Shown here: in pieces, positions 60,166 to 64,000 of the stretch
Layout of the letters: every line of letters starts with the position of its first letter
Numbering within the stretch: the stretch's first letter is position 1
Assembly (NCBI RefSeq): GCF_963664075.1
Contig: NZ_OY760916.1
Location: forward strand, 3,927,001 to 3,991,000
Direction of reading: 5' to 3'
Source: an uncultured Desulfobulbus sp.
Lineage (GTDB): Bacteria > Desulfobacterota > Desulfobulbia > Desulfobulbales > Desulfobulbaceae
Length of the DNA: 64,000 bases
Position numbers and translations under genes: made by a program
Notes under the pieces: model-generated
The model's database searches: none
Seen by the model: only the letters and a program-made list of their open reading frames with translations
What the model was told of the DNA's origin: nothing

Positions 60166-60289
60166 GGGTAAAGATCACAGAGAACTGCCACCGGAATCCG
60201 TGAGCATTCATTTTTGGGATTGCCAGTTCGTTGACCTGGTGGTAGGCTTGCGTCCTCAGCTCACAGAGCTGTTTAACTTAACTTACACT

Positions 60290-60470
60290 ACATAAAGACA
60301 GTTCTATAAACGGAACACGGTGTAAATCCGTGACGGTCCCGCCGCTGTAACCGGTTGTATAGATCGCATTCTTCATCCTGATGGATGGAAAAAGCCACTG
60401 ACCCCAAAAAGTCGGGAAGGCGCGATGTAAGCAGTCACCGGAAGTCAGAAGACGTATAGACAGATTCTTC
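60290..60470 (+). promoter_or_regulatory. Cobalamin (AdoCbl) riboswitch
   Basis: The conserved core is readable: CGGAACACGGTGTAAATCCG, TGACGGTCCCGCCGCTGTAA, CCGG, then GCCACTGACCC, GTCGGGAAGGCG and the B12 box AGTCAGAAGACGT at 60444-60456. Spacing and order fit the Rfam cobalamin riboswitch. It controls the downstream lower-ligand genes; a perfect terminator follows at 60487, so binding should stop transcription. Exact ends are approximate. Confidence 0.93.
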
Positions 60471-60486
60471 TTGGGAACGCGATGGC

Positions 60487-60534
60487 AAAGGGTTTCAAAA
60501 GGTATTTTCCCCTTTTGAAACCCTTTTTCTTTTT
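60487..60534 (+). terminator. Expression-platform terminator of the cobalamin riboswitch
   Basis: 16-bp perfect stem AAAGGGTTTCAAAAGG/CCTTTTGAAACCCTTT with an eight-base loop (TATTTTCC), then a pyrimidine tract (TTCTTTTTCC). It precedes the start codon at 60569 by 35 bases. Confidence 0.92.
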
Positions 60535-60568
60535 CCGCACTCGGACTGTCGCAACGTACGGAGGATAC

Positions 60569-61891
60569 ATGAAAACCCAAATCGAGCACGCCCGTGCTCT
60601 CACCCTGACCCCTCAAATGGAAGCCGTAGCCCAGGCCGAGGGGCTCTCTCCACAGTATATTTGTGACAAGGTCGCCCTTGGCGAGATCGTCATTGCCAAC
60701 CATCCCAATCGACCGCAACAAAAGGTTGTTGGCATCGGTACGGGATTGCGCACCAAGCTCAACGCCTCCATCGGCACCTCCTCGGATATCTGTGACCTGC
60801 AAGCTGAAATTCGCAAGGCTCAGATCGCCGAGGCTGAAGGCGCCGACACCCTGATGGAGCTCTCTGCAGGCGGTGACCTGGACAAAATCCGACGAGAAGT
60901 CCTGGCCAACACCACGCTTCCTGTGGGAAATGTCCCACTCTACCAGGCCTTTAAAGAAACGGCCCGTCGCTATAAAAATCCTGCAAAACTGGATCCGGAA
61001 TTTCTCTTTGAGCTGATCGAACGGCAGCTTGACGATGGCCTGAGTTTTATGGCCATCCACTGCGGCATCAACCGCTACACCATCGAGCGGCTGCGTAAAC
61101 AAGGGTTTCGCTACGGCGGCCTGGCCTCCAAGGGCGGCACCTTCATGGTGGCCTGGATGGATGCCACCGGCAAGGAAAACCCTCTCTACGAACAGTTTGA
61201 TCGCGTCTGTGCACTGATGAAAAAATATGATGCCATTCTCTCTTTAGGAAACGGCATACGTGCTGGCGCCATCCACGACAGCCACGATCGGGCTCAGATG
61301 GCGGAGATGATCATCAACTGTGAGCTCGCTGAACTGGGCCGGGAGATGGGCTGCCAGATGATGGTGGAAGGGCCGGGCCATGTGCCCCTGGATGAGATTG
61401 CAGCCAACATTCAGCTGGAAAAAAAGATGAGCGGCAACGCCCCGTATTACGTTCTGGGCCCCCTGCCCCTGGATACCGGCGCCGGCTACGACCACATCAC
61501 CTCGGCCATTGGCGCGGCCAACTCCGCTCGCCATGGAGCAGACCTGGTCTGTTATATCACCCCGGCCGAGCACCTGGCGCTGCCCAATGAGGCTGATGTT
61601 CGCGAGGGCGTGCGCGCCACTCGTCTGGCACTACGCATTGGTGATGTGGCCAAATATCCCGAGCGGCGAGAGCGGGAAAAACAGGCAGCCATGGCCCGTC
61701 GTGACATGCGCTGGCAGGATCTGGAGCAGCATCTGCTTTTCCCCGAACTGGCCCGAGAGATTCGCAGGGAACGCACGCCCCAAGCCGATGACACCTGCAC
61801 CATGTGTGGTGATTTCTGCGCCATGAAAAAGGGAATGGAGGTTTTTGCCCAGGATATCAGCTGTGAAAAACGGGCTCAGCAGGGCCAATAA
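60569..61891 (+). CDS. bzaF: ThiC-family radical SAM enzyme; probable 5-hydroxybenzimidazole synthase BzaF (alternative: phosphomethylpyrimidine synthase ThiC)
   Basis: Start set at ATG 60569 (ACGGAGGATAC); the frame runs 29 codons further upstream through the terminator. 440 residues. ThiC-fold motifs: GIGTGLRTKLNASIGTSSD, DTLMELSAGGDLDKIRREVL, AIHCGINRYTIERL, MVEGPGHVPLDEIAANI and LGPLPLDTGAGYDHITSAIG. The C-terminal cluster is CTMCGDFCAMK, one residue shorter between the last Cys pair than the ThiC CX2CX4C. ThiC makes thiamin pyrimidine; its paralogue BzaF makes 5-hydroxybenzimidazole from aminoimidazole ribotide. A cobalamin riboswitch (not TPP) and neighbours cobT and a methyltransferase point to BzaF. 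Confidence 0.78.
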   Translation: MKTQIEHARALTLTPQMEAVAQAEGLSPQYICDKVALGEIVIANHPNRPQQKVVGIGTGLRTKLNASIGTSSDICDLQAEIRKAQIAEAEGADTLMELSAGGDLDKIRREVLANTTLPVGNVPLYQAFKETARRYKNPAKLDPEFLFELIERQLDDGLSFMAIHCGINRYTIERLRKQGFRYGGLASKGGTFMVAWMDATGKENPLYEQFDRVCALMKKYDAILSLGNGIRAGAIHDSHDRAQMAEMIINCELAELGREMGCQMMVEGPGHVPLDEIAANIQLEKKMSGNAPYYVLGPLPLDTGAGYDHITSAIGAANSARHGADLVCYITPAEHLALPNEADVREGVRATRLALRIGDVAKYPERREREKQAAMARRDMRWQDLEQHLLFPELAREIRRERTPQADDTCTMCGDFCAMKKGMEVFAQDISCEKRAQQGQ

Positions 61892-61939
61892 CCTTGTATC
61901 CGGCATAATTCCACATTTTCTCATACCCAGGAGAGCACC

Positions 61940-63004
61940 ATGCGCCTTCTCGATACAACCATAGCCGCAATCAAACAACCAAATCAGACTGTCCACCAGC
62001 AAGCCCTGCAACGGCTGGCCGATCAGGCCAGACCCCAGGGGAGTCTGGGTATTCTCGAGCCTCTTTCCGCTCGACTCGCTGCCATTACCGGCACCCTTGA
62101 TGTACGATTTTCCCAAAAAATTATCGTCACCTGCGCAGGCGATCATGGCGTGGTCGAGGAAGGGGTCAGCCTCTTCCCCCAGGAAGTCACCCCGCAGATG
62201 GTCTACAACTTTATCCAGGGGGGGGCCTCGGTCAGCGTCCTGGCAAACAATGCCGGTGGATCGGTCCGGGTTGCTGATCTGGGGGTTAAACACGATTTCC
62301 CCGAAGACCTGCCCATCTTCCATAAAAAGATCGCCTACGGCACGGCCAATTTTACCAAAGAGCCCGCCATGACCCGGGAACAGGCGATACTATCTCTTGA
62401 GGCGGGCATTGAAATCGTCAATCAGCTGGTCGATGAGGAAGGACTCGATCTTCTGGGGACCGGTGATATGGGGATTGGCAACACCACTCCTTCGGCAGCG
62501 ATTATCGCTGCATTCTCCGGGCTACCGGTGGAAACTGTCACCGGTCGCGGGACCGGCATTGACAATGAGGCGCTGGCAAACAAGATCCGAGTGATCGAAC
62601 AGGGACTGGCCCTGCACAAACCCAACCCAGACGATGCCTTGGATGTTCTTTCCAAGGTGGGAGGGCTGGAAATAGGCGGTCTGGCCGGACTGGTGATCGG
62701 TGCTGCCGGACGGGGCATTCCTGTGGTCTGCGACGGCCTGATCTCAACAGCCGGGGCATTGATTGCCTGTGAGCTGGTTCCGGCAGCCAAAGATTACCTC
62801 TTTGCCAGCCACAACTCGGTTGAAATCGGACACCGCTGCATGCTCGATCGCCTTGGCGTCCAGCCCCTGCTCAACCTTGATTTTCGGCTCGGCGAGGGAA
62901 CCGGTGCGGCAGTTGCCATGCACCTTATCGGCGCGGCAACCCGTGTCCTGGCAGAGATTAAGACCTTTGCCGAGGTCGGCATTAACGACGCCCAGCAGCA
63001 ATGA
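61940..63004 (+). CDS. cobT: Nicotinate-nucleotide-dimethylbenzimidazole phosphoribosyltransferase (CobT)
   Basis: 354 residues. ARPQGSLGILEPLSARLAAI opens; IIVTCAGDHGVVEEGVSLFP and LGTGDMGIGNTTPSAAIIAA carry substrate-binding residues; the closing LLNLDFRLGEGTGAAVAMHL has the catalytic Glu region (Glu317 in Salmonella CobT). Activates a benzimidazole base to its alpha-ribotide for attachment as B12 lower ligand. Downstream of the ThiC-family gene (48 bases) and overlapping the methyltransferase by four bases, so it acts on the base made by the operon. Confidence 0.96.
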   Translation: MRLLDTTIAAIKQPNQTVHQQALQRLADQARPQGSLGILEPLSARLAAITGTLDVRFSQKIIVTCAGDHGVVEEGVSLFPQEVTPQMVYNFIQGGASVSVLANNAGGSVRVADLGVKHDFPEDLPIFHKKIAYGTANFTKEPAMTREQAILSLEAGIEIVNQLVDEEGLDLLGTGDMGIGNTTPSAAIIAAFSGLPVETVTGRGTGIDNEALANKIRVIEQGLALHKPNPDDALDVLSKVGGLEIGGLAGLVIGAAGRGIPVVCDGLISTAGALIACELVPAAKDYLFASHNSVEIGHRCMLDRLGVQPLLNLDFRLGEGTGAAVAMHLIGAATRVLAEIKTFAEVGINDAQQQ

Positions 63005-64000
63005 GCACTCACGACACGGAACAAAGCCCCCTTGTGGGGGCTTCGTTTCTCCAGTTCTCTGACCTGCTCACCAGCTATCGCCTCGGCATTGTTCTCATGC
63101 TGGTGGAAAAAATCGGATTGGTCAAGATGCTGGGTGAGCAAGGGGCGACCAGTGAACAGCTCTGCGAGCAGCTGGGGTGGAATGGAGCCTATGGTCAACG
63201 CTTTTTTGACTGCCTCTGTCGCCTGGGCCTGCTTGAAATCAAGGCTGAACGCTATTTTCCCGGCAGCTTCAGCCAAAGGTTTCTGACTCCAGGCGCCTGC
63301 GCCTACCAGGGGGGCACGCTGAGCTTTGAACAGCAATTGCTGCAATCCTGGATGCAACTGGAGCCAACCCTGCAGGCTGGGAACCGAATCTACGCAACAG
63401 AAGACAAAACTCCAGAAGAACTCAACCAGGCATTTCGCCGGTATCTTGGCGCCATGGATGAGGCAGCTTGCCAACGGGCTGCAGAAGTTATTGCAGCACT
63501 TGGGCACCTGCCCCAAAAGGGAACAATCCTTGATCTCGGCGGCGGCTCAGGAGCCTACCTGGCACAGTTTTTAACGCAGAATCCTTCCTGGTCGGCAATC
63601 TTCTGCGATCTGGATCAGGTGGTGAGTGCGGCCCTGCAAGGGCGCCTTGCACCTTTTGCCCCGCGTATCACTCCCTGTCGCTGCAACCTGCTGGCTGAAG
63701 ATGCCCGCGAACTCAAAGCCATCAAGGACCAGAGCTGCGACCTGGTACTGCTCTCCAACCTGATACATTGCCAGGGATCCAAGGAAACAGCAGGCATCAT
63801 TCGGCTCGCTGCCCAAAAAACAGCCGGTTCAGGGGTGTTGCTCCTCCATGATTTTTTCAGTGATTGCGGCTGGCGAGATGCGCTCTACGATCTGCACATG
63901 ATGCTCAATACCTATAACGGCCGCACCTACCGGATCCAGGAATGTATCGCCATGGCAACCAGTGCCGGATTCTGCACCCATCGCCAATATGCTCTTCCCT
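63001..64000 (+). CDS. SAM-dependent O-methyltransferase (Methyltransf_2-like), probable BzaC; 3' end outside window
   Basis: ATG 63001 overlaps the cobT stop (ATGA). The frame is open to the window edge (333 codons), so it is truncated. Residues ~15-90 form a winged-helix dimerisation domain (FSDLLTSYRLGIVLMLVEKI, ATSEQLCEQLGWNGAYGQRF). The SAM-binding Rossmann part starts at ~175: TILDLGGGSGAYLAQFL, then FCDLDQVV and LVLLSNLIHCQG. In anaerobic lower-ligand operons the corresponding enzyme (BzaC) methylates 5-hydroxybenzimidazole to 5-methoxybenzimidazole. Assignment rests on context and family. Confidence 0.72.
   Translation, partial: MSTHDTEQSPLVGASFLQFSDLLTSYRLGIVLMLVEKIGLVKMLGEQGATSEQLCEQLGWNGAYGQRFFDCLCRLGLLEIKAERYFPGSFSQRFLTPGACAYQGGTLSFEQQLLQSWMQLEPTLQAGNRIYATEDKTPEELNQAFRRYLGAMDEAACQRAAEVIAALGHLPQKGTILDLGGGSGAYLAQFLTQNPSWSAIFCDLDQVVSAALQGRLAPFAPRITPCRCNLLAEDARELKAIKDQSCDLVLLSNLIHCQGSKETAGIIRLAAQKTAGSGVLLLHDFFSDCGWRDALYDLHMMLNTYNGRTYRIQECIAMATSAGFCTHRQYALP

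Follow-up and report, generated by a model that had tools for sequence, protein, structure and literature searches.

A riboswitch, a terminator, and three co-directional genes

The DNA analyzed here (the window, a stretch of 64,000 nucleotides) belongs to a Desulfobulbus sp. whose genome consists of one contig of 4,775,109 bases. At its right edge, a single co-directional unit on the plus strand runs from a cobalamin riboswitch and a terminator through a ThiC-family gene and cobT to a methyltransferase gene (Table 1). The three genes very probably serve to synthesize and attach an unusual lower base of a B12 relative. A first-pass annotation of this DNA had named the same three genes, and matches to PF01964, TIGR03160, and PF00891 support those names. 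It had also described an overlapping gene order, which holds for cobT and the methyltransferase gene (the latter starts inside the end of cobT, with an overlap of 4 bases) and not for the ThiC-family gene and cobT, which are separated by a gap of 48 bases. We set the start of the ThiC-family gene at 60569, behind GGAGGA, because the ATG of the longer ORF (60482) precedes the terminator. The left neighbor of the operon is, by our own reading of the ORFs, an amino-acid-type ABC transporter.

Table 1. Features of the three-gene unit, in window coordinates
Feature	Position	Strand	Evidence
Cobalamin riboswitch aptamer (RF00174)	60258..60473	+	77.3 bits vs. gathering score 31.5, full-length match
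Intrinsic terminator	60487..60526	+	16-bp perfect stem, 8-base loop, T-rich tail
bzaF, ThiC-family radical SAM enzyme, proposed 5-hydroxybenzimidazole synthase (440 aa)	60569..61891	+	Pfam/NCBIfam, tree, residues
cobT, lower-base phosphoribosyltransferase (354 aa)	61940..63004	+	TIGR03160
Methyltransferase, proposed BzaC (354 aa)	63001..64065 (window ends at 64000)	+	PF00891, homology, gene position

The riboswitch match spans model positions 1–189 and is the only Rfam match above gathering score in the window. The full riboswitch core and perfect terminator described in the first-pass annotation were both recovered, the former with the Rfam score given in Table 1 and the latter with 16 pairs and zero mismatches; the element is thus real, and only its start, placed at 60285, had to be moved slightly further left, to 60258. 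The terminator stem, located by a pattern scan, is followed by TTCTTTTT. The fold of 60478–60540 has an energy of −25.4 kcal/mol (z −5.7), equaled by none of 200 shuffles. In a search for an antiterminator, a weak alternative hairpin came out as possible, and pairing to the leader upstream did not surpass that of shuffles (277 of 300 were as good). From this anatomy we infer riboswitch-controlled transcription termination: When cobamide is scarce, transcription would pass the terminator, and when it is plentiful, the riboswitch would let the terminator form.

Genome-wide, 13 cobalamin riboswitches (one partial) scored over the gathering score. The first genes behind some of them (eight proteins scanned) include three TonB-type receptors, a DUF3450 gene, and a cytochrome c assembly-type gene, as well as cbiK and one weak PrkA match. 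A tandem pair lies at genome positions 2276565–2277122 (minus), and its nearer riboswitch ends about 180 bases before a gene for methylmalonyl-CoA mutase, a cobamide-dependent enzyme. Two further riboswitches, at 1056128–1056718, stand back to back with about 220 bases between them; a DUF3450 gene follows the one that points right.

Identity of the ThiC-family protein

The first protein matches PF01964 with 565 bits. It also matches three NCBIfam equivalog models for ThiC, of which it passes two (554 bits vs. a cut-off of 410, and 492 vs. 460) and fails the third (363 vs. 650). The BzaB model TIGR04386 gives 492 bits, under its curated cut-off of 700, and no BzaF model was found among the NCBIfam matches of this protein. 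Since two ThiC models accept the protein, an automatic annotation as ThiC would probably be wrong here. Taken at face value, the two passed models would make the gene a second, ordinary thiC serving thiamine synthesis, a reading that we consider hardly credible in view of a thiC elsewhere in the genome, the clade and residue differences described below, and the company the gene keeps, with cobT as its neighbor and a cobalamin riboswitch upstream. The other ThiC-family gene (1,610,395–1,609,133, minus strand; product 42% identical to the window protein) is the fifth and last gene of a series read by eye as thiG, thiH, thiF, thiE, and thiC; upstream of these thi genes lies the one TPP riboswitch that was found genome-wide (1,614,056–1,613,964). 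The first-pass annotation had proposed looking for such a separate thiC under a TPP riboswitch and placing the protein in a tree.

We inferred a midpoint-rooted tree of 77 rows, comprising 75 of 161 collected sequences and two ThiC sequences from the PDB; the tool flagged long branches in it. All 49 BzaF-type rows, the window protein among them, grouped together (SH-aLRT 100). Four BzaA/BzaB rows from two genomes fell on the BzaF side, with the 24 ThiC rows opposite (supports of 82 and 94, the latter for the split from the ThiC rows); the name BzaA was assigned by position before a BzaB that exceeds its model cut-off (752 and 750 bits).

The alignment was mapped onto Arabidopsis ThiC, and the residue letters looked up all agreed with the numbering in the passages available from PMC4389238. 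According to these passages, ThiC contacts aminoimidazole ribotide (AIR) through Asn228, which bonds a ribose hydroxyl, and through Asp383, which bonds the imidazole N3. The BzaF-type rows, 49 of 49, have Ser for Asn228, Asn for Asp383, and Lys for Arg343, and these replacements occur in none of the 24 ThiC rows; the window protein has Ser67 at the position of ThiC Asn228 and Asn228 at that of ThiC Asp383. The residues for the AIR phosphate, SAM, the metal, and the cluster are retained in the BzaF-type rows, with Tyr286, His322, Ser342, Arg386, Glu422, His426, Tyr449, Glu489, and His490 kept in 49 of 49, as are the three cluster cysteines and the counterpart of Caulobacter ThiC Cys474. In the two bzaAB genomes, the Asn228 position holds Ser in BzaA and Leu in BzaB, and Asp383 is kept in both. 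The D383A variant of Arabidopsis ThiC gave no HMP-P, and D383N rescued activity only partly, as stated in a passage of PMC11117688; a natural Asn at this position is therefore compatible with a different reaction. We found no discussion of the three replacements in the literature at the level of passages from outside the primary BzaF papers.

The window protein thus shares with ThiC (phosphomethylpyrimidine synthase; PDB 3epm and 4s25; PMC4389238, in part) the fold family and the residues for AIR phosphate, SAM, metal, and cluster, and differs in its three replaced residues, its separate clade, and its location outside the thi operon. It is not ThiC, and we rejected that plain label because of the separate thiC in the thi operon, the BzaF-type clade, and the changed residues, all of which agree with the first-pass warning that such a label would be wrong. 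As had been suspected from the presence of a single ThiC-like gene in the operon, the protein is best called BzaF, a putative 5-hydroxybenzimidazole synthase. Where two current ThiC models would give BzaF-type proteins the wrong label, the three residues offer a test to distinguish them from ThiC.

The methyltransferase and the operon in relatives

The CobT protein matches TIGR03160 with 430 bits, over the curated cut-off of 319.3. The methyltransferase matches PF00891 (38 bits vs. a cut-off of 22), and its best solved relative is the O-methyltransferase 3mcz (E 3e-15). In one genome of the phylum (G437), bzaA, bzaB, and cobT are followed by a methyltransferase gene whose product is 30% identical to that of the window over 339 residues; no methyltransferase was found after cobT in the other of the two bzaAB genomes (G362). 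Because of this identity and the same gene position after bzaA–bzaB–cobT, the methyltransferase is likely BzaC, an assignment based on homology, gene position, and shared residues. N253, H283, D284, and D297 are common to the 15 window-type rows (counted as shared when present in 14 or 15 of 15), to four other bzaF-linked rows, and to the G437 row. In a set of 19 remoter homologues, the N253 position holds His in all 19, H283 is found in six, and D284 in four. All four residues are also carried by L111, a homologue without known bza linkage.

In a midpoint-rooted tree with a single bzaAB-linked row, the 15 window-type methyltransferases constitute a separate clade (100/100), and those of loci L028, L031, L045, and L088 cluster elsewhere, with L111. 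Divergence is also much faster in the methyltransferase than in BzaF and CobT: The methyltransferase is 71% identical in L018, where BzaF and CobT are 92% and 94% identical, and 56% in L192, where they are 91% and 90%. Both the separate clade and the fast divergence would suit a methyltransferase that does not act on this base, leaving the operon to yield 5-hydroxybenzimidazolyl cobamide and its third gene to do something else; the residues in common with the bzaAB-linked methyltransferase and the overlap of the methyltransferase start codon with the cobT stop speak against such a split of functions.

We searched 395 genomes of the phylum, considering matches of 1e-110 or stronger. Copies at least 60% identical to the window protein occur in at least 82 genomes, 81 of them full-length at 572 bits or more and one a fragment (436 bits at 65%); the remaining phylum matches, among the matches listed, reach at most 50% identity and 444 bits. 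Within the genus, six of 23 genomes carry bzaF. For the comparison of operons we used 80 named BzaF loci, the best 80 of 578. Among these best 80, the closest named relative is Desulfobulbus rhabdoformis (92% identical in the first protein), which carries all three genes of the operon, cobT lies downstream of bzaF in 50 of the 72 loci having at least 1.3 kb of downstream sequence, and a methyltransferase is present in 14 of the 67 loci having 2.4 kb. With two shorter contigs included, bzaF occurs with the methyltransferase in 16 of the 80; in one of the 16 (L037), the methyltransferase comes after bzaF, and cobT is absent. That most BzaF loci do without the methyltransferase (on the count of 14 of 67 among the best 80 of 578) would again fit an operon product that stays at the 5-hydroxy stage. 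In the family (73 genomes), however, all six genomes with a methyltransferase at 47% identity or more also carry bzaF, on the same contig in five, the contig of the sixth (G032) breaking inside cobT. On these lines of evidence taken together, we consider it unlikely that the methyltransferase acts on something other than this base.

An Rfam cobalamin riboswitch lies upstream in all 11 loci scanned out of the 16 with bzaF and methyltransferase. In L074, about 1.3 kb separate its end from bzaF. The wider phylum sample (L198–L217, 20 loci) has such a match in only seven; the riboswitch is thus characteristic only of the closer relatives. These counts are of Rfam matches only; a home-made pattern proved too loose, with both halves matching 54 of 586 control stretches and the second half by itself matching 300 of 586, and in the wider-phylum sample its first half picked out 15 of 20 loci, versus the seven found by Rfam.

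Some relatives have longer operons. In two Desulfobacteraceae MAGs (L031, 7345–12975; L088, 7350–12336), bzaF–cobT–methyltransferase is accompanied by a BzaD-like gene and a BzaE-like B12-radical SAM gene; the BzaD-like gene of L031 scores 391 bits, under the cut-off of 450, and the BzaE-like genes of both are named by position. In L031 the methyltransferase carries a fused DUF2284 domain, and the L088 methyltransferase also matches DUF2284.

The predicted cobamide

The first-pass annotation proposed that the methyltransferase would give 5-methoxybenzimidazole, or dimethylbenzimidazole if bzaD and bzaE lay just beyond the window. The first product is the one we predict, and the route to the second through adjacent genes was rejected: Right of 64000, bzaD and bzaE do not follow, the methyltransferase gene giving way to a stretch of about 1.45 kb that contains no ORF of 120 aa and then to a YeiH-like membrane protein (read by eye). 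Nor was a BzaD over the cut-off found in the genome (best match 151 bits vs. 450). The radical SAM gene at 4639819 was rejected as BzaD, being over the cut-off of TIGR04072 instead. No close BzaE was found in the genome either, the best match to the L031 BzaE-like protein being 24% identical, and for the aerobic route no BluB over the cut-off was found there (best 51 of 150 bits). Because adjacent bzaD and bzaE are absent and the genome matches are weak, the predicted base is 5-methoxybenzimidazole and not dimethylbenzimidazole.

Characterized systems lead to the same product. Passages of PMC8123684 describe the Moorella thermoacetica operon bzaA–bzaB–cobT–bzaC as giving 5-methoxybenzimidazolyl cobamide; in a comparison of gene order and not of sequence, the Desulfobulbus operon has a ThiC-family base synthase, cobT, and a methyltransferase in the same order and the same predicted product, with one BzaF-type synthase replacing the BzaA–BzaB pair. 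It departs further from bzaAB operons in its methyltransferase, which is only 30% identical to the one available from this phylum (G437). In Geobacter sulfurreducens, bzaF and cobT are stated to give 5-hydroxybenzimidazolyl cobamide (PMC7726332 and PMC8123684, both in part). This system resembles ours, by description and not by sequence, in pairing a single BzaF-type synthase with CobT, and a product left at the 5-hydroxy stage would match the one stated for that species; the Desulfobulbus operon adds a downstream methyltransferase and an upstream cobalamin riboswitch. The BzaD/BzaE pathway to dimethylbenzimidazole has the same first steps and the same cobT–bzaC order, and bzaD and bzaE are not recognized in the Desulfobulbus genome. 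Judged by what these gene sets are stated to produce in Moorella and Geobacter, the product is most likely 5-methoxybenzimidazolyl cobamide (factor IIIm).

We regard it as probable that the unit is a cobamide-controlled bzaF–cobT–bzaC operon of a Desulfobulbus-like anaerobe, with predicted activities and regulation and with factor IIIm as its predicted product. BzaF would convert AIR to 5-hydroxybenzimidazole using SAM and a [4Fe-4S] cluster, CobT would activate the base, and the methyltransferase, acting on the base before or after its activation, would form the 5-methoxy derivative. The pathway should stop at 5-methoxybenzimidazolyl cobamide because no recognizable BzaD or BzaE is present in the genome. 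Profile models for six bza genes, together with product prediction from gene sets, have already been published (PMC6461909, in part), so the operon adds no new pathway; its parts and pathway are already known, and it is to be annotated as lower-ligand and not thiamine synthesis. We found no description of this operon in Desulfobulbus in literature listings and main-text passages. From the assignment one can predict the B12 relative that is produced, and may be shared, by a group of anaerobic sulfate reducers.

We know of no bza gene set that makes 5-methylbenzimidazole. Desulfobulbus propionicus is reportedly among the sulfate reducers of a study from 1988. The title of that study announces 5-methyl-, and not 5-methoxybenzimidazolyl cobamides from some sulfate reducers, and the relevant part of a review lists D. 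propionicus as a cobamide producer with the base unnamed. The 1988 title, along with the BzaD-like and BzaE-like genes in the operons of the relatives L031 and L088, could mean that unlinked enzymes, missed by the BzaD model and the BzaE-like query, carry the base on to 5-methyl- or 5,6-dimethylbenzimidazole. Given that the best BzaD match is far below its cut-off and exceeds that of TIGR04072, and that the best BzaE-like match is so distant, we think this improbable, slightly more so than a product left at the 5-hydroxy stage, and retain factor IIIm as the predicted product.

A related gene set was noted in a Kiritimatiellia MAG (L074, 5920–11604), with the order bzaF–cobT–methyltransferase::DUF2284–BzaE-like, making it a candidate gene set for 5-methylbenzimidazole. 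Its BzaE-like protein is 33% identical to that of L031. No bzaD was found between or after the operon genes within the locus; the best BzaD match in the L074 genome (297 bits) has other radical SAM genes as neighbors, and the 19 kb around it showed no bza gene. This gene order suggests a possible 5-methylbenzimidazole route, and the bzaF–cobT–methyltransferase operons of Desulfobulbaceae and their relatives might conceivably form the front half of such an undescribed route, although we would give this little credence. Just as speculatively, the route would run from 5-hydroxy- through 5-methoxy- to 5-methylbenzimidazole, its last step falling to a BzaE-type enzyme without BzaD (linked in L074) or to an unlinked enzyme in the Desulfobulbus genome. 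For the window itself the case is weak because its genome is without such a close BzaE. With the operon described here, the old mismatch between the 5-methylbenzimidazolyl cobamides reported from sulfate reducers and the bza gene sets becomes testable.

Finally, the genome encodes three CobT homologues, that of the operon included. The other two (2887170–2888213 and 4543334–4544368, minus) are 50% and 45% identical to it, and with two more CobT genes present, other bases may be used as well. The homologue at 4543334–4544368 adjoins a gene read by eye as cobS.
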